Shown here piece after piece: positions 28,240-41,289 of a stretch of DNA of 64,000 nt. How positions within the stretch are numbered: position 1 is the first letter of the stretch; each line of letters opens with the position of its first letter. The DNA comes from Sphaerobacter thermophilus DSM 20745 (GTDB lineage Bacteria > Chloroflexota > Chloroflexia > Thermomicrobiales > Thermomicrobiaceae). The position numbers were made by a program, and so were the translations under genes. The stretch covers positions 2,108,001-2,172,000 of the forward strand of contig NC_013523.1 of assembly GCF_000024985.1 (NCBI RefSeq), given 5' to 3'. A model generated the notes under the pieces. It saw nothing but the letters and a program-made list of their open reading frames with translations, was not told where the DNA came from and made no database searches.

Positions 28240-30009
28240 CTACTCCGGCTCGATCTCCTCGGCGTTGAAGATGCTTCGTGCCGCGCGCAGCCGGCGCTCG
28301 TCGTCCTGATCCGCTGGAGACTCGGCTGCGGATGGCGACGCGCCGCCGTTCGCGGGCGGTGGCGTGGGTGTGGGTGTGGCCTCCGTCGGCATCGGGGCCG
28401 CCGGCGCCACGTCGCGGATCTCCTCCGGGGCTAGGCAGACGACGCGGTAGGGTCCACCCATGTACCGGCCGAGCACGTCCTCGACGACGGCGCGGATCCC
28501 GTCGTCGTTCAGTTTGTTACGGTGGAACTCGTAGGGGGAGACCAGGACGACCTCCTCCCCCCGCACGTCCAGCGGGTCCACCGAGCTGAGGAGGGCAGCG
28601 ACGCGGGAGTTGGCCATCTTCACGTCGCGCCGGATCTGCCCCCAGCTCGCGACCAGCCGTTCCAGCGCGGAGCCGGCTGCGGGGCGTGGCGTCGCGGCCG
28701 GCGTCGGGGCAGGCCGCGGGGAATCGACCGGGCGCACCGTGCGGAGCACGGGTGACGGCTCCCGCACCGGGGGTTGCCGTCGCGCGGGTTCCGGTCGCGG
28801 CGACGGCGCAACCGCACGCGCCGGCTCGGCCGGCCGGATCGGCGGGGGCTGCGGCGATTCCGCGGGCGGAGCCGCGGCCGGCGTGGCGCCGACGATCGAC
28901 TCCACCAGAGCGATCTCCAAGGGCAACTGCGCGTAGGAGCCCTTGTTCAGCGCCCCCTCGATCGAGCTGAAGGTTCGCACCAGCGCGGCCAGCTCCGCCA
29001 CGGTGAACTGCTCCGCCTGGGCGCGAGCGTCGTCCCCGGCCTCGTCGCTGGTGCCACCGGCGCGGATCAGGAGCAGCGTGCGGAGGTAGGCCACAAGCTG
29101 ACGGTTGAGCTGATGGATATCCTCTCCGCTCTCGGTGGCCTCGGCGATGACGCGTAGCCCGGCGCCAGCGTCCTTCTTTGCCAGCGCGTCCACGAGCGCC
29201 ACCAGGCGATCGCTTCGGCTCATGCCGGTGACGCGCCGCACGGCGTCCGCGGTGATCACCAGCTTGCCGTCGACCGTCTCCCCGAAGAGGGCGAGCTGCT
29301 CCAGCAGGCCAAGCGCGTCCCGCATACTGCCGGTGGCCTGACGCGCGATCAGCCGCAGCGCCTCGTCCTCGGCTTCCATACCCTCGCGCTCGCAGACCGC
29401 GCGCAGGTGCTCCACGACATCGCTGAGCGCGAAGCGGCGGAAGTCGAAGCGCTGGCAACGTGAGGCGATGGTGTCCGGCAACTTGTCCGGCTCGGTGGTC
29501 GCGAGGACGAACTTGACATGCCCCGGCGGCTCTTCCAGCGTCTTGAGGAAGGCGTTGAAGGCATCACGGGTGAGCTGGTGCGCCTCGTCGATGATGTAGA
29601 ACTTGACCCGGAGCTGGGTCGGGGCGTACTTGACCTTCTCGCGCAGGTCGCGGATATCGTCGACCCCGCGGTTCGATGCCGCGTCGATCTCGATGATGTC
29701 GACTGCCGTCCCGGCGTTGATGGCCTCGCAGGCCTCGCAGGCATTGCAGGGGCGCGCCTCGGGGTCAGGAGCCAGGCAATTGACCGCCTTCGCCAGCAGC
29801 CGGGCGGTGCTGGTCTTCCCCGTGCCGCGCGGTCCACAGAAGAGGTACGCATGGGCGACCCGGTCGAGCACGATGGCGTTGCGCAGCGTCCGGGCGATGT
29901 GCTCCTGACCCACGAACTCGCCCGGCGCGAACGATCGCGGGCGATACTTCCGGTACAATGACTGCGACTGCGCCGCCGTCTCGGCGCGACCGCTCGGCTC
30001 CTGGGGCAT
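28240..30009 (-). CDS. dnaX: DNA polymerase III subunit gamma/tau
   Basis: The clamp-loader ATPase of the replicative polymerase. In 589 aa: Walker A GPRGTGKT (59-66), a zinc module (Cys78, Cys88, Cys91, Cys94), Walker B/DEAH (141-144), the sensor-1 region FVLATTEPDKLPDTI, followed by the collar domain and a Pro/Ala-rich linker at about 375-440. The C-terminal domain (about 445-530) corresponds to tau domain V. A TATAAT -10 lies about 50 bases upstream. I see no obvious A-tract slippage site for a separate gamma product. Confidence 0.96.
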   Translation of the reverse strand: MPQEPSGRAETAAQSQSLYRKYRPRSFAPGEFVGQEHIARTLRNAIVLDRVAHAYLFCGPRGTGKTSTARLLAKAVNCLAPDPEARPCNACEACEAINAGTAVDIIEIDAASNRGVDDIRDLREKVKYAPTQLRVKFYIIDEAHQLTRDAFNAFLKTLEEPPGHVKFVLATTEPDKLPDTIASRCQRFDFRRFALSDVVEHLRAVCEREGMEAEDEALRLIARQATGSMRDALGLLEQLALFGETVDGKLVITADAVRRVTGMSRSDRLVALVDALAKKDAGAGLRVIAEATESGEDIHQLNRQLVAYLRTLLLIRAGGTSDEAGDDARAQAEQFTVAELAALVRTFSSIEGALNKGSYAQLPLEIALVESIVGATPAAAPPAESPQPPPIRPAEPARAVAPSPRPEPARRQPPVREPSPVLRTVRPVDSPRPAPTPAATPRPAAGSALERLVASWGQIRRDVKMANSRVAALLSSVDPLDVRGEEVVLVSPYEFHRNKLNDDGIRAVVEDVLGRYMGGPYRVVCLAPEEIRDVAPAAPMPTEATPTPTPPPANGGASPSAAESPADQDDERRLRAARSIFNAEEIEPE

Positions 30010-30059
30010 CCATTGATCCTTACGAGCTGGCTCCTGCGCGGCGTCAAGTGTCCGTACGC

Positions 30060-30065
30060 ATTATA
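30060..30065 (-). promoter_or_regulatory. Consensus -10 upstream of dnaX
   Basis: The minus strand reads TATAAT at 30065-30060, a perfect -10, giving a start near 30053 and a leader of about 45 nt. The -35 region is GC-rich and poor. Confidence 0.5.
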
Positions 30066-30098
30066 CCCCGCCGGGCGAGCCGGGTGAAAGACACGGGC

Positions 30099-30956
30099 AT
30101 GGCCGGCACCCTGTACCTCGTCGCGACCCCGATCGGCAACCTGGAAGACATCACGCTCCGTGCCCTGCGCATCCTGCGCGAGGTGTCCCTGATTGCCGCC
30201 GAGGACACGCGCCACTCCGGCCGCCTGCTCAAGCACTTCGGCATCGAGACACCAATGGTGAGCTACCACGGCCACAGCGGGCCCGGGCGGATCGACGAGA
30301 TCCTGGCGGCGCTGGAGACCGGCGACGTGGCCGTCATCTCCGATGCCGGGATGCCGGGCATCTCCGACCCGGGCTTCGAGCTGGTGCGCGCCGCGGCGGA
30401 ACGCGGGATCCGCGTCGAGCCGATTCCGGGTCCATCGGCCGTCATCGCCGCCGTCGCGGCCTCCGGCCTGGTGCCTGGTGGGTTCCTCTTCCTCGGCTTC
30501 CCACCGCGCCGTCCGTCGGAACGTCGGAAGCTCTTCGCGTCGCTGGCCGACCTCCCGTTCCCGCTCGTCCTCTACGAGGCACCGCACCGCCTGCGCGCGA
30601 CGCTTGCAGACCTCGAGTCGGTCCTGGGCGATCGGCCGGTCACTCTGTGCCGCGAGCTCACCAAGGTGCACGAGGAGATCATCCGCACGACCATGGCCGC
30701 CGCGCACGCGGCCTTGGAGGAGCGCCCCCCGCGCGGTGAATACGTCGTGGTCGTCGGAGCACCCGAGCCGCGCACCCGGACCGATCCGGAACAGGCCGCG
30801 GACCTGCTGCGAGACCGGCTCGCAGCGGGCGAGTCACCCAGCGCCGCCGCCCGCGCCGTCGCCCGCGCAACTGGCCTTCCCCGCAGCGACCTCTACCGCC
30901 AGGCCCTGGCGCTGCGGGAGAGGGAGGTGAGCGACAAGCCGCGGTCGAAGGATTAG
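30099..30956 (+). CDS. rsmI: 16S rRNA (cytidine(1402)-2'-O)-methyltransferase RsmI
   Basis: RsmI methylates the ribose of C1402 in 16S rRNA with S-adenosylmethionine. The 285-aa product has the family signatures LYLVATPIGNLEDITLRAL (residues 4-22), EDTRHSGRLLKHFGI, VISDAGMPGISDPG (the SAM-site block), PGPSAVIAAVAASGL, and FLGFPPRR. The C-terminal segment SPSAAARAVARATGLPRSDL is the typical HTH-like tail. ATG 30099 matches the family start; a GTG at 30084 is also in frame and the ribosome site is weak for both. Divergent from dnaX. Confidence 0.94.
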   Translation: MAGTLYLVATPIGNLEDITLRALRILREVSLIAAEDTRHSGRLLKHFGIETPMVSYHGHSGPGRIDEILAALETGDVAVISDAGMPGISDPGFELVRAAAERGIRVEPIPGPSAVIAAVAASGLVPGGFLFLGFPPRRPSERRKLFASLADLPFPLVLYEAPHRLRATLADLESVLGDRPVTLCRELTKVHEEIIRTTMAAAHAALEERPPRGEYVVVVGAPEPRTRTDPEQAADLLRDRLAAGESPSAAARAVARATGLPRSDLYRQALALREREVSDKPRSKD

Positions 30957-31445: not shown

Positions 31446-31565
31446 TTCCACCGCACGAAGACCCAGCAGCACACGCCCCCGCACGCATGAACCCGCGGCC
31501 GCGCACCCACGGTCAAACAGCCACCACGGTGATCAATCAGTGTCCCTGAGACACAAAAAGAGGGC

Positions 31566-31790
31566 ACAAAAACGCGATCCCGACGAGCCTCGTGGTTTCC
31601 GACGCCATCCTGTCGGTCTCTCCCACACCAGGTTTCCTCATCGGATTCCCGTATGGCCTGTACCGACGACCGCACCATCGTTGCCTCTGATGCGATCGAC
31701 CTCCCCGGTTTCCCGGTTTGGTCTGGATCTTCCAAATCGGTTGGCCGATCTGGAAGTGCGCCGGCCCTTCGAACAACTCCTCGGGACCGC
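31566..31790 (-). ncRNA. Candidate structured small RNA, copy A
   Basis: This unit is read leftward from a strong promoter (31797-31825). The predicted 5' end begins within two bases of GGTCCCGAGGAG (31788-31777), which can pair, with one mismatch and one GU, with CTCGTCGGGATC (31587-31576) at the 3' end. Five U follow at 31572-31568. Inside are a hairpin CCAGATCGG/CCGATTTGG and a 26-nt nested hairpin at 31723-31698 (outer GACC/GGUC, inner CCGG-GAAA-CCGG). The copy at 39962-40189 shares the promoter layout, closing helix, nested hairpin (23 of 26 bases) and 3' end. No long ORF with a ribosome site is conserved between the copies. I cannot match it to 6S, tmRNA, SRP or RNase P RNA. Confidence 0.6.
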
Positions 31791-31796
31791 ATAGTC

Positions 31797-31825
31797 AGAG
31801 TAGCACTCCGGTGCCGGCCTGTCAA
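31797..31825 (-). promoter_or_regulatory. Promoter of small RNA copy A
   Basis: The minus strand carries a perfect -35 TTGACA (31825-31820), a 17-base spacer and a -10 TACTCT (31802-31797). It points away from the E2 gene and into the candidate RNA. Confidence 0.65.
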
Positions 31826-31945: not shown

Positions 31946-33277
31946 CTAGCTGATGGCCAGCAGCATCGGCTTCTCAAGGTAGCGCTTGACCTCCGCCAGG
32001 AACCGCGCCGCCTCGGCACCGTCGGTGACCCGGTGGTCGGCCGAGATCGTGATGCGCATCAGGTCGACCGGCACGAACACGCCGTCCTGATAGACCGGCT
32101 CCTTGCGGATGCTGCCGACGGCCAGGATCCCCGCCTGCGGCGGGTTGATGACAGCGATGAAGCTCTCGACATCGTACATGCCGAGGTTGCTGATGGTGAA
32201 CGTGCCGCCCTGGTACTCCTCGGGGCGCAGCCCGCCCTCGCGGGCGCGCTGGATCAGGTCCTTAGTGATCGTCGCGATCTCGCCCAGCGACTTGCGGTCG
32301 GTGTCGGGGATGAACGGGGTGATGAGCCCGCCCTCCACCGCGACGGCGATGGCGATGTCGATCCGCTCGTAGACGCGCACCTGGTCGCCCGCGAAGCTGG
32401 CGTTGAGCATCGGGAACTTGCGCAACGCCAGCGCCGTGGCCCGGACGATCAAGTCGTTGACCGAGACCTTCTGCTCCGCCTCGACCTGCTCGTTGATCTG
32501 CTCGCGCAGGGCGAGCGCGGCGCCCATGTCCACCGTGGTGGTGACGTAGAAGTGGGGCGCCTGGAAGCTCTCGGTCATACGCCGGGCAATGGTCTGGCGC
32601 ATGCGCGAGAGGTCGCGCAGCTCGCTCGGCGGCGCGCCTGGGGGCGCGGCCACTGCTGCGGGCGCTGCGACCGGCGCGGCCGGAGCAGCCGGGGCAGCGG
32701 CGGGTTCGGCCGGGGCCGCCGGCTCGGGCGCAGCCGCGGGAGCGGCCGGGCGGCCGATCAGCGGCATGATGTCTTCCTTGACGATCCGTCCGCCGGGTCC
32801 GGAGCCTGCCACGGTACTCAGGTCGATGCCGTGCTCGGCGGCCAGACGGCGGACCAGCGGCGAGGCACGCACGCGCTCGCCCGGCGCCCGCTCGACCACC
32901 TGAGCCACCGGCTGGGGCTGGGACTCCGGCTGTGGCGCCTCGCGGACACCGTCAGTCGGGCTGGGGGCGGCGGGGGTGCCGGCTTCGGGCACCGTCGCCT
33001 CGGTCTGCGCAGGGGTCTCCGGCACGTCGATCGGCTCGTCCGGGTCGCCGACAATGGCGATCGCCTGGCCGACCGGGACGGTCGCGCCCTCGCTGACGAG
33101 GTGCTTGCGCACGACGCCGGACTCGAACGACTCGATCTCCAGGTTGACCTTGTCCGTCTCGATCTCGGCGATCGGCTCGCCACGCTCGACCCGTTCGCCC
33201 TCCTGCTTCAGCCAGCGCAGGAGCGTCCCTGCATCCATGTCGTAGCCCATCTGGGGCATCACGACGGTCTTGGCCAT
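31946..33277 (-). CDS. 2-oxoacid dehydrogenase E2, dihydrolipoamide acyltransferase
   Basis: The core acyltransferase of a pyruvate or branched-chain 2-oxoacid dehydrogenase complex. In 443 aa: a lipoyl domain with the lipoylated Lys43 in ETDKVNLEIES, a Pro/Glu-rich linker, a peripheral-subunit-binding domain (about 136-170, VRRLAAEHGIDLSTVAGSG), an Ala/Pro-rich linker, and the catalytic domain ending SADHRVTDGAEAARFL with His415 and Asp419. Single lipoyl domain. Third gene of the operon after E1 alpha and E1 beta, 39 bases downstream of the latter. Whether the substrate is pyruvate or a branched-chain oxoacid cannot be decided here. Confidence 0.93.
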   Translation of the reverse strand: MAKTVVMPQMGYDMDAGTLLRWLKQEGERVERGEPIAEIETDKVNLEIESFESGVVRKHLVSEGATVPVGQAIAIVGDPDEPIDVPETPAQTEATVPEAGTPAAPSPTDGVREAPQPESQPQPVAQVVERAPGERVRASPLVRRLAAEHGIDLSTVAGSGPGGRIVKEDIMPLIGRPAAPAAAPEPAAPAEPAAAPAAPAAPVAAPAAVAAPPGAPPSELRDLSRMRQTIARRMTESFQAPHFYVTTTVDMGAALALREQINEQVEAEQKVSVNDLIVRATALALRKFPMLNASFAGDQVRVYERIDIAIAVAVEGGLITPFIPDTDRKSLGEIATITKDLIQRAREGGLRPEEYQGGTFTISNLGMYDVESFIAVINPPQAGILAVGSIRKEPVYQDGVFVPVDLMRITISADHRVTDGAEAARFLAEVKRYLEKPMLLAIS

Positions 33278-38213: not shown

Positions 38214-38449
38214 TAACTTCTTGTCGAATGCGTACGCGTCCGCGTCGCAGCGCGAGGTGAGCGATCCTCCCACCCGCGGGCGTTTCACCGATGGAGAGAC
38301 CGATTTGGTAAAGGAGTTGACGCACGCTCGGCCCATTTCTCTGCTGCTCTACCGGGCACGAACAGTGCGTGGTATCGTGGATGCCGGACCCGAGAAAAGC
38401 AGGTGCTGCACTATCCCGCCCGGCGGCTGAGTCGAGGAGTACCAGTATC

Positions 38450-39880
38450 GTGAACGCCCCACGCCGCACCCGAACGACCAAGATCGTGGCAACGATCGGC
38501 CCCGCGTCCTGGGATGCGCAGACACTCGAGCGCCTGATCCGCGCGGGCGCCGATGTGATCCGCATCAACACCGCCCACAACGCCGTTGAGGAACGCTACG
38601 CGATCGTGCAGATCATCCGCTCCGTCACGCGCGAGACCGGCCGCCACATCGGCATTCTTCAGGACCTGGCCGGCCCCAAACCTCGCACCGGCCCGGCCGC
38701 GGACGGCGAGGCGATCATCTTGGAGCGGGGCGCGCTGGTCCAGCTCACAGCGGGCGATGACCCGCTCGAGCCCGATCGCATCTCGATCGACGATCCGGAG
38801 CTGGTCAGCGCACTGGGCGCCGGGCAGCGGGTGTTGATGAGCGATGGCCTGATCGAACTGATCGTCACCGCCCGTAGGGGAGATAGTGTGACGGCGCGGG
38901 TGGTGCGCGGCGGGCGCCTGCGCGGCCGCCAGGGCGTCACGGTGCCGGGCGCCCCGGCGCCGGTACGTACCCTCTCAGCCACCGAGGCGACCGACATCGC
39001 CTTCGCCGCGGAGCAGGACCTGGAGTACCTCGGCGTGAGCTTCGTCACCTCCCCGGCCGACATCATCATGGTCCGCGACGAGCTGCGCCGGCACGGCGGC
39101 CGCGCCGCCGTGGTCGCGAAGATCGAGCGTCCTGAGGCGCTGCGCGCCATCCACGAGATCAGCCACGTGGCCGACGCCCTCATGGTCGCCCGGGGGGATC
39201 TGGGCGTGCAGCTCCCGCCGGAGGAGGTGCCGATCGCCCAGAAGCACATCGTCGACGTGGCGCGCTCCCACGGGAAACCCGTCATCATCGCCACGCAGAT
39301 GCTGGAGACAATGACCAGTCAGCCGCTCCCGACGCGCGCGGAGACGAGCGACGTGGCTTATGCCGTGCTCGATGGGGTCGACGCGGTCATGCTCTCGGCC
39401 GAGACGGCCACCGGCAAGTACCCGGTGGAGGCCGTCGAGATGATGGACCGCATCGCCCGGACGGTGGAGACCGCCTTCCCGGTGAGCCCGCGGCCGCAAA
39501 GCGACCGAGCCGACACGATCGCCTCCACCATGGCTCGCGCCGCCAGCGACCTCGCCCGCCGCTCGACGCTGGTCAACTTAATTGCCGTCATTACCCGCAG
39601 CGGCTACTCCGCCCGCGAGGTGGCCCGCGAGCGGCCGGCCGTCCCGGTGGTCGCCGTGACGAACAGCGAGTTCGTCGCGAATCAGCTCGCGCTGGTGTGG
39701 GGGGTTGAGACGGTAGTGATGGAGTTCGCCAGCGACACCGAGACGCTGGTCCGCGATATCGGCGAGCGGCTCGTCGCCACCGGCCACGCGCATCCCGGGA
39801 TGCACGCCCTCTTCGTCGGTAGCCTCACCGTCCACCACGAGCCCGGCCACGTCGACGTGCTCCATCTCCGCCGGCTGTGA
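38450..39880 (+). CDS. pyk: Pyruvate kinase
   Basis: Makes pyruvate and ATP from phosphoenolpyruvate and ADP in glycolysis. The 476-aa protein has TKIVATIGPAS at the N-terminus, the adenosine/K+-site strand as VIRINTAHNAVEE (where NFSHG is usual), DLAGPKPRTG, AAVVAKIERPEA with the catalytic Lys, DALMVARGDLGVQLPPEEVP and IIATQMLETMTSQPLPTRAE. GPK rather than GPE fits potassium-independent enzymes, consistent with loss of the Ser of NFSHG. GTG 38450 follows GAGGAG by ten bases. The C-terminal domain (about 350-476) is complete. Confidence 0.92.
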   Translation: MNAPRRTRTTKIVATIGPASWDAQTLERLIRAGADVIRINTAHNAVEERYAIVQIIRSVTRETGRHIGILQDLAGPKPRTGPAADGEAIILERGALVQLTAGDDPLEPDRISIDDPELVSALGAGQRVLMSDGLIELIVTARRGDSVTARVVRGGRLRGRQGVTVPGAPAPVRTLSATEATDIAFAAEQDLEYLGVSFVTSPADIIMVRDELRRHGGRAAVVAKIERPEALRAIHEISHVADALMVARGDLGVQLPPEEVPIAQKHIVDVARSHGKPVIIATQMLETMTSQPLPTRAETSDVAYAVLDGVDAVMLSAETATGKYPVEAVEMMDRIARTVETAFPVSPRPQSDRADTIASTMARAASDLARRSTLVNLIAVITRSGYSAREVARERPAVPVVAVTNSEFVANQLALVWGVETVVMEFASDTETLVRDIGERLVATGHAHPGMHALFVGSLTVHHEPGHVDVLHLRRL

Positions 39881-39961
39881 GGCGGAGACAAGTCAGGCGT
39901 TCAGGGGCAACCGCACCTGGCGCGTTCTCTGGGTGTTATGCGGAGGAAAGCTGTTCTCGGA

Positions 39962-40189
39962 CACAAGAAACGATCCCGACGAGCCTGCGTCTCGACGCCA
40001 TCCCACTGACCGATACGTTCCTGGCTTGCCGACGAGCGCCGGCTGCCCTGGTTCGCTCGTGCCAGCGACCGCTCCCCAGCTTCCTGGTTTGCGGCCGACC
40101 GCCCCGGCTTCCCGGTTGGGTCGGGATCAGCCCCGAGGGTGGGCCTCGGTGGCTGTGCGTCGATCCGTCGGTCGACTCCTCGGGATCGT
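39962..40189 (-). ncRNA. Candidate structured small RNA, copy B
   Basis: Read leftward from a strong promoter (40196-40224). The 5' GATCCCGAGGAG (40187-40176) can pair with CTCGTCGGGATC (39983-39972), closing the whole unit; CGTTTCTTGTG follows. Inside: a strong hairpin CAGCC-CCGAGG/CCUCGG-GGCUG near 40150-40123, the 26-nt nested hairpin at 40122-40097 (GACC/GGUC around CCGG-CCGG), repeated ACCAGG-type hairpins, and a GCGTCGAGACGC hairpin near the 3' end. The layout equals copy A at 31566-31790, while the loops differ. No convincing gene lies in 39881-40262, so the transcript is probably non-coding and ends near the pyk 3' end. Confidence 0.6.
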
Positions 40190-40195
40190 GTATGT

Positions 40196-40224
40196 ACAGT
40201 ACCACACGTGTGCCGGCTTGTCAA
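40196..40224 (-). promoter_or_regulatory. Promoter of small RNA copy B
   Basis: The minus strand has a perfect -35 TTGACA (40224-40219), a 17-base spacer and -10 TACTGT (40201-40196). The sequence between (GCCGGCAC shared) resembles the copy A promoter. Confidence 0.65.
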
Positions 40225-40262: not shown

Positions 40263-41108
40263 CTACCGAACCAACCGGTACGTCGCCTGCTCGTCCGCGC
40301 CCTCCTGGATGACGCGTCCGTCCTCGATCAGTTTCTCCAGGTGCGCGTACACCGTCGAGCGGGCGGCGTACACGTTCCGTGGGGCCAGATCAGGGTAGAT
40401 GCGCGCAACGAGGTCAGGGATAGTAGTGACACCGGCGGCCAGGTATTCGGCGATCTGCTCCTCGCGCGCCAGCCGGTGCTCGATGTAGCGCCGCAGCGTG
40501 GCCGGTCCGTTGTCAATCACCGGGCCGTGTCCCGGCAGGAGCCGGGTGACACCGCGGTCGAGCAGGCGCTGGAGCGACGCCAGGTAGGCGCGCATGCTGC
40601 CGTAGGGCGGGAAGATGCCGACCGTGCCCCGCCCGTGCACCAGGTCCCCCGCGAGCGTCACACCGGAGTTCCGTTCGACAAAGACGACATGCCCCGCGGC
40701 GTGACCCGGCGTCAACACCGCATCGAAGACCAGCCCGGCGACCTCGAAGGTCTGACCGTCCTTGAGGTAGTGGTCCACGGGGAGGGGTTCTTTCAGTCGC
40801 TCGGCGACCGGCAGGTCGTCCGGGTGCAGCCAGATCGGCGCCCCCGTCGCCTCGCGCAGTGCCGCCGCCCCTGCGGCATGATCGACGTGAGCGTGGGTCA
40901 GCAGGATGTCACGCACCGGCGGGTCACCCAGCTTTGCCAGCGCGGCCAGGATCACCTCGGTCCCCGCCGCGGATCCAGGGTCGACGACCACCACCGGTCC
41001 ACCCTGCTCGGGGGAGTGGACGATGTAGGCGTTCGTCTCTTCTTCCATGATGCCGTCGTTGGGCACCGGCACGCTGATGATCTTGCTCGCGATGTCCACC
41101 GTCTCCAC
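40263..41108 (-). CDS. MBL-fold metallo-hydrolase with C-terminal winged helix (LACTB2-like)
   Basis: A 281-aa metallo-beta-lactamase-fold hydrolase. The binuclear metal site is visible as LTHAHVDHAAGA (HxHxDH), with later ligands in LTPGHAAGHVVFV, GDLVHG and LPGHGPVID. The C-terminal 60-70 residues (REEQIAEYLAAGVTTIPDLV, then VYAHLEKLIEDGRV) match the winged-helix extension seen in LACTB2-like proteins, some of which are nucleases. GTG 41108 is chosen because GGAGGAG lies nine bases upstream; the frame is open to 41177. Substrate unknown. Confidence 0.88.
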   Translation of the reverse strand: METVDIASKIISVPVPNDGIMEEETNAYIVHSPEQGGPVVVVDPGSAAGTEVILAALAKLGDPPVRDILLTHAHVDHAAGAAALREATGAPIWLHPDDLPVAERLKEPLPVDHYLKDGQTFEVAGLVFDAVLTPGHAAGHVVFVERNSGVTLAGDLVHGRGTVGIFPPYGSMRAYLASLQRLLDRGVTRLLPGHGPVIDNGPATLRRYIEHRLAREEQIAEYLAAGVTTIPDLVARIYPDLAPRNVYAARSTVYAHLEKLIEDGRVIQEGADEQATYRLVR

Positions 41109-41289
41109 TGGCAGATCTCCTCCGAGCCGGAGTTCTTCCCCACGCCGGGGCCGCGCCCCGCTCCGCTCTGCGGACATGCTACCAGACGCGTCCAGCGCGG
41201 CTTCGCCCCGCTCGGGCTATCATTGTGCCAGTGCTCCTGGCACGCCGCGAGGATGGCGAGCATGTCAGGCATGGAGGAGGTCGATGGCC

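Follow-up and report, generated by a model that had tools for sequence, protein, structure and literature searches.

6S RNA is a standalone transcript of ~200 nt with a long closing helix, and in some bacteria two paralogues are present per genome. Y RNA and YrlA, which occur with Ro60, have a variable interior enclosed by a conserved stem that joins the two ends and bears a small internal loop, a possible site for a protein, and the CsrA/RsmA-sequestering RNAs (RsmY/RsmZ and CsrB/CsrC) are paired, independently transcribed and hairpin-rich, with repeated loop motifs. Few structured noncoding RNAs have been described from Chloroflexota; one of them, the Chloroflexi-1 RNA motif (RF01698), is listed only for Chloroflexus aggregans (Weinberg 2010, PMC2864571).

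The window analyzed here is a 64 kb stretch (contig 1, 2108001-2172000) of the 3,993,764-base, two-contig genome of Sphaerobacter thermophilus, and it contains two related units, copies A and B. We are highly confident that a real new structured RNA family is present. The sequence comparisons below further give reasonable, if limited, confidence that copy B, with its paralogue copy A, belongs to an undescribed family of standalone structured noncoding RNAs of about 185-285 nt. The kind of molecule is already known, but the family itself appears to be new; judged from the genomes compared, it is characteristic of the order to which Sphaerobacter, Thermomicrobium and Thermalbibacter belong, where both the transcription unit and the fold are shown by comparison to be conserved.

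Comparison with described RNA classes

Searches against Rfam release 15 (4227 families) gave no match at gathering score across the 64 kb window, including to the Chloroflexi-1 motif from the same phylum, and none to the copy B unit even at E values up to 10. Twenty diverse homologous loci searched at E values up to 5 gave no match within the RNA; their only two matches (E = 3.2 and 3.4) were far below the gathering scores and outside the RNA. No description of such an RNA was found in the open literature on this Chloroflexota clade. The only genome matches to 6S RNA (RF00013, C1:1341265-1341421, 60.1 bits), SRP RNA (RF00169, C1:1101471-1101570, 75.6 bits) and RNase P RNA (RF00010, C1:1710922-1711286, 102.1 bits) all exceed the Rfam cut-offs and lie away from both copies, consistent with the preliminary description, which had recognized no hallmarks of these classes in copy B. 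A diverged housekeeping RNA (6S, SRP, RNase P, tmRNA or Y RNA) would match copy B in size range, in having its own promoter and in its closing helix. With 6S, SRP and RNase P RNAs found elsewhere, no Rfam match, and no tRNA or tmRNA detected by ARAGORN within the window, this identity is highly improbable.

The family shares with 6S RNA a length of ~200 nt, a long closing helix and the occurrence of paired copies, but 6S RNA is a single rod with a central bubble, whereas the RNA described here is multibranched and has a separate 6S RNA elsewhere in its genome. A conserved end-to-end stem around a variable interior is common to Y RNA and YrlA; the present RNA is, however, about twice the size, has no Rfam match and is carried almost entirely by genomes without the TROVE protein. 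Ro60 (TROVE, PF05731) is absent from 21 of 21 genomes of the window's family and was found in only 4 of the 61 genomes of the order, and the Y RNA reading was rejected because this partner protein is missing from nearly all carriers. In contrast to the CsrA/RsmA-sequestering RNAs, the core is closed by two helices, P1 and P2, and inspection of the folds by eye revealed no GGA-in-loop motif common to the whole family.

The predicted copy B transcription unit and its paralogue

The preliminary description gave the extent of copy B as 39962-40189; a unit is indeed present there, but its limits are adjusted, as the folded part runs from 40189 to 39970 and the tail to about 39960. Its parts (window coordinates) are as follows.

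40196..40224, minus strand: promoter TTGACA-N17-TACTGT, a layout kept among homologues
40190..40195, minus strand: discriminator ACATAC, the 6 nt from the -10 to the expected +1, from the sequence
39970..40189, minus strand: copy B structured RNA, 220 nt from closing helix to closing helix
40174..40189, minus strand: P1 5' arm ACGATCCCGAGGAGTC, starting at the expected +1
40157..40163, minus strand: P2 5' arm TCGACGC, pairing with 39998-39992, 100% of cells paired
40128..40155, minus strand: P3 hairpin, with compensatory change in 7 of 11 pairs across six Sphaerobacter-type sequences
40097..40122, minus strand: P4 hairpin GACC-CAA-CCGG-GAAG-CCGG-GGC-GGTC, from the fold comparison
40067..40096, minus strand: P5 hairpin, helices 8 and 9 of the copy B fold
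40005..40066, minus strand: P6 long arm, helix 10 of the copy B fold
39992..39998, minus strand: P2 3' arm GCGTCGA, from the copy B fold laid on six sequences
39970..39985, minus strand: P1 3' arm GGCTCGTCGGGATCGT, pairing with 40189-40174
39959..39969, minus strand: U-rich tail TTCTTGTGTCC, the probable termination region, with the end expected near 39960

The promoter proposed earlier was found at 40224-40196 on the minus strand, in a layout conserved among homologues. Within the 64 kb window, the pattern TTGACA-N17-TAYTNT has exactly two occurrences, one ahead of each copy, and it appears in none of 100 shuffles. Generic promoter and terminator scans made no call at the copy B signals; the promoter scan misses the site because TACTGT retains only three of the six -10 consensus bases, so that the argument for the promoter rests on its conservation across homologues. 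There, the -35/-10 spacing is exactly 17 and the -10/+1 spacing 6 nt in 30 of 36 units fitting the spacing pattern. The copy B discriminator with its adjoining bases (window 40199-40190) reads TGTACATACA, which can be compared with TGTACGTACA in family f5. In the f5 promoters, TGTACGTACA is kept between the -10 and +1 (for example, at G054:C64:48834-48878), often with a second TGTACG half, upstream, overlapping the -10, and the arrangement looks as though a regulator binds there.

The closing helix had been predicted between the 5' end and a segment about 200 bases on, and the 16 first bases of copy B (40189-40174) are complementary to its 16 last (39985-39970); TTCTTGTGT comes next. The U-rich end is equally a feature of the homologues, in which the 12 bases after P1 contain a mean of 6.2 T against 2.2 in the background nearby. 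Mechanical ORFs run across the unit, yet no reading frame is stop-free in all family members (unit length 184 to 284 nt), in agreement with the earlier view that it contains no credible ORF.

The homologous unit noted 8.4 kb away is copy A, which is 65% identical to copy B across about 270 bases.

31797..31825, minus strand: copy A promoter TTGACA-N17-TACTCT, from the pattern scan
31574..31790, minus strand: copy A paralogous RNA, 217 nt, with the architecture of copy B
31562..31573, minus strand: copy A U-rich tail GTTTTTGTGCCC, from the sequence

Both copies are intergenic. Copy B has a metallo-beta-lactamase-fold gene (40263-41177, minus strand) on one side and a convergent pyruvate kinase gene (38369-39880, plus strand) on the other; elsewhere, its position is kept near a histidine kinase, according to the neighbor-gene comparison. 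Copy A is flanked by an E2 acyltransferase gene (31946-33277, minus strand) and convergent rsmI (29958-30956, plus strand), with dnaX (28240-30009) beyond, and this place is retained in two genera; the same rsmI-dnaX order is kept in genus g3, which suggests that the copy A locus is old. With its stem and the U tract behind it, the unit looks like a riboswitch terminator, as would be expected if it acted in cis on a downstream gene as a leader, attenuator or riboswitch. However, the next gene downstream is convergent for both copies, and the homologues are flanked by differing genes, with no common neighbor beyond rsmI-dnaX for copy A and the histidine kinase for copy B. As neither RNA stands directly ahead of a co-oriented gene, regulation in cis is very unlikely; the diversity of the neighbors and, in the window, the convergent orientation of the downstream genes speak for a trans-acting RNA.

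Homologues across the order

The scan of Chloroflexota genomes suggested in the preliminary description found members across the order. It used a sequence-only model, R1, comprising the promoter plus the 5' frame, with DNA patterns alongside and the 3' half of the unit left out. Among 158 genomes of the class, confident R1 matches were confined to the window's own order, and R1 and the DNA patterns together place the family in about 50 of its 61 genomes, a count read from match lists after evident chance matches were dropped and with the 3' arm checked for part of the units. By family, the window's own has members in 18 of its 21 genomes, the three lacking a match being 54-78% complete; the figures are 4 of 5 for f3 and 28 of 32 for f5. 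Two different copies per genome are usual, as in G021, G023, G025, G029, G037, G054, G055 and G056. In a sample of 400 genomes of the phylum, nothing convincing was met outside the order; the single weak match, in G401, looks like coding sequence, lacks the arms and was rejected. A pattern scan of 84,980 species returned 48 stretches, 42 from Chloroflexota and six scattered singletons. The six out-of-phylum matches were rejected because they have no recognizable 3' arm, which makes them a useful negative control. In the searches among the relatives, reversed patterns gave almost no matches.

In 36 of 40 units, 9-10 of 10 positions of the outer 5' arm pair with the 3' segment, which was unused in the search; this segment lies nearly always inside GGCTCGTCGG-like sequence, with a T run next. 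Two of the four remaining units are sequences of another kind. Matches this good are not rare in shuffled sequence for some units taken singly, and it is the consistent place and sequence of the segment that give the result its strength. Family f5 adds 15 new units with the same 3' pairing, and some of these new units carry ACAGTTCCGA/TCGGAACTGT where others have ACAGTCCCGA/TCGGGACTGT.

Two other kinds of locus were met in the relatives. At L137, L138, L152 and L052 (genus g5), caught through chance similarity to the 5' frame, a promoter-like TTGACA-N17-TA...T and, after it, the palindrome GATATCGCGATATC stand directly ahead of a conserved reading frame, MGELLVGRPALKL... A second RNA-like unit, of about 80-88 nt, is found at L130, L131 and L139-L142 (genus g4) and at L145 and L054 (family f5). 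It has the promoter layout of the large family, and its closing helix, GGTCCCGA...TCGGGACC, has a T run directly after it; its interior is near-invariant in g4 (GGGAGGGAAATCGAAAGCCGAAAGGCGAGTAGAAAGTACC), and in some cases it lies just upstream of an apparent GYD-type protein gene. The small unit has no Rfam match, and a pattern search did not find it in the window's genome.

Conserved fold and its possible role

The predicted folds of both copies are unusually stable (copy B, -130.6 kcal/mol, z = -6.4; copy A, -121.6 kcal/mol, z = -7.5), with none of 200 shuffles as good in either case. For P1, 44 distinct arm pairs gave 96.1% of cells paired, double changes at six pairs (46 cells) and a covariation score of 0.335, compared with 0.093 or less in slid registers. 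All members share P1 starting from the expected +1, with inner CCGA-N-GAG paired with CUC-G-UCGG, then P2 and a core that branches into several hairpins. The inner P1 columns, CCGA/UCGG and GAG/CUC, are near-invariant, and the outer pairs covary. As the inner CCGA/UCGG pairs hardly vary, they provide no covariation evidence themselves; an invariant inner P1 with covarying outer pairs fits recognition of sequence as well as shape.

For the core, the minimum-energy fold of copy B was computed from its sequence alone and then laid on six Sphaerobacter-type sequences, limiting circularity. In this comparison, 91.6% of cells were paired with 20 double-change pairs, many of them in P3, against 27-44% paired and 1-8 double-change pairs in slid registers. 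Treated in the same way, ten sequences of the distant subfamily f5 gave 82% paired and 28 double-change pairs (slid registers, 38-44% and 11-19). As the sequences are related, the double changes do not count as independent events, although the slid controls preserve the relatedness. Compensatory changes thus support a common fold, which is the general test for a structured noncoding RNA. Both the internal hairpins reported earlier (P3-P6) and the suggestion of selection on RNA structure are upheld, the abundant compensatory changes falling away once the register is slid.

These results also bear on the possibility that the unit is a MITE-like small nonautonomous mobile element, whose terminal inverted repeats would form the closing helix, as arms of 14-16 bp flank a unit of 185-285 bp present twice in the genome. 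Such elements would not account for the covarying internal helices, and beyond the arms the promoter and T tract are conserved, each at a fixed spacing. With only two copies per genome, about 65% identical, no target duplication at the arms of either window copy, and the place of copy A beside rsmI and dnaX held in two genera, this origin is very unlikely.

Core length and loops depend on the lineage, and from one family to another the core structures show only a loose likeness. CCGG-GAAR-CCGG hairpins occur in Sphaerobacter and g4 genomes (the inner CCGG-GAAR-CCGG of P4 does not vary within the Sphaerobacter genus), GGAGGTGA-type segments in the core of g4, g5 and g6 units, and paired TTGCGGGG-like hairpins in the core of f5 units. 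Loops of this kind could be displayed on the closed scaffold to pair with mRNAs or the 16S 3' end, making the two copies a pair of base-pairing regulatory sRNAs. Some loops are conserved within subfamilies: the (A/G)UUGCGGGG(U/C)-like hairpins, found twice per RNA in f5, would suit this reading, as would the GGAGGUGA or GGGGGUGA of genera g4, g5 and g6, which is complementary to the anti-Shine-Dalgarno end in its general form, UCACCUCC, and two paralogues per genome are common for such sRNAs. However, no one loop motif runs through the whole family; in Sphaerobacter, copy A retains at most GGAGGU and copy B lacks it, and the RNA is more rigid than is usual for an sRNA that acts by pairing, with conservation that peaks in a helix rather than a loop; we therefore consider sRNA function unlikely, though with a real share of the probability. 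Its anti-Shine-Dalgarno version was rejected, as the complementary motif is present in some genera only.

The family is, instead, probably RNP-forming. The RNA would be made as an independent transcript from a sigma-70-like promoter at fixed distance, with P1 and the U tract terminating the transcript and sealing its ends against nucleases. The invariant inner P1 (CCGA-N-GAG with CUC-G-UCGG) may then be a docking site for a common protein, and the fast-evolving core may give each paralogue its own specificity. A trans-acting RNA of this RNP type would be closer in working style to 6S or the CsrA-sequestering RNAs than to a riboswitch. That a common protein reads the closing helix while the core differs between the paralogues is a mechanism to which we give slightly less than even weight: the conserved inner P1 could equally stem from promoter-proximal DNA constraints or terminator strength, and a single function shared by families with only loosely alike cores is not proven.

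A large, strongly structured RNA that is retained, usually paired, by most genomes of the order is unlikely to be dispensable. As the host Sphaerobacter thermophilus is cultured, the RNA's transcription, structure and partner proteins are directly testable, and more than 60 units form a comparative set for discovering a new RNA-protein system. More tentatively, the family may constitute a new bacterial noncoding RNA machine, an order-wide pair of closed, multibranched RNAs with a shared protein-bound closing helix and two distinct functional cores that are maintained together; if true, it would rank with 6S or OLE RNA at the time of their discovery.
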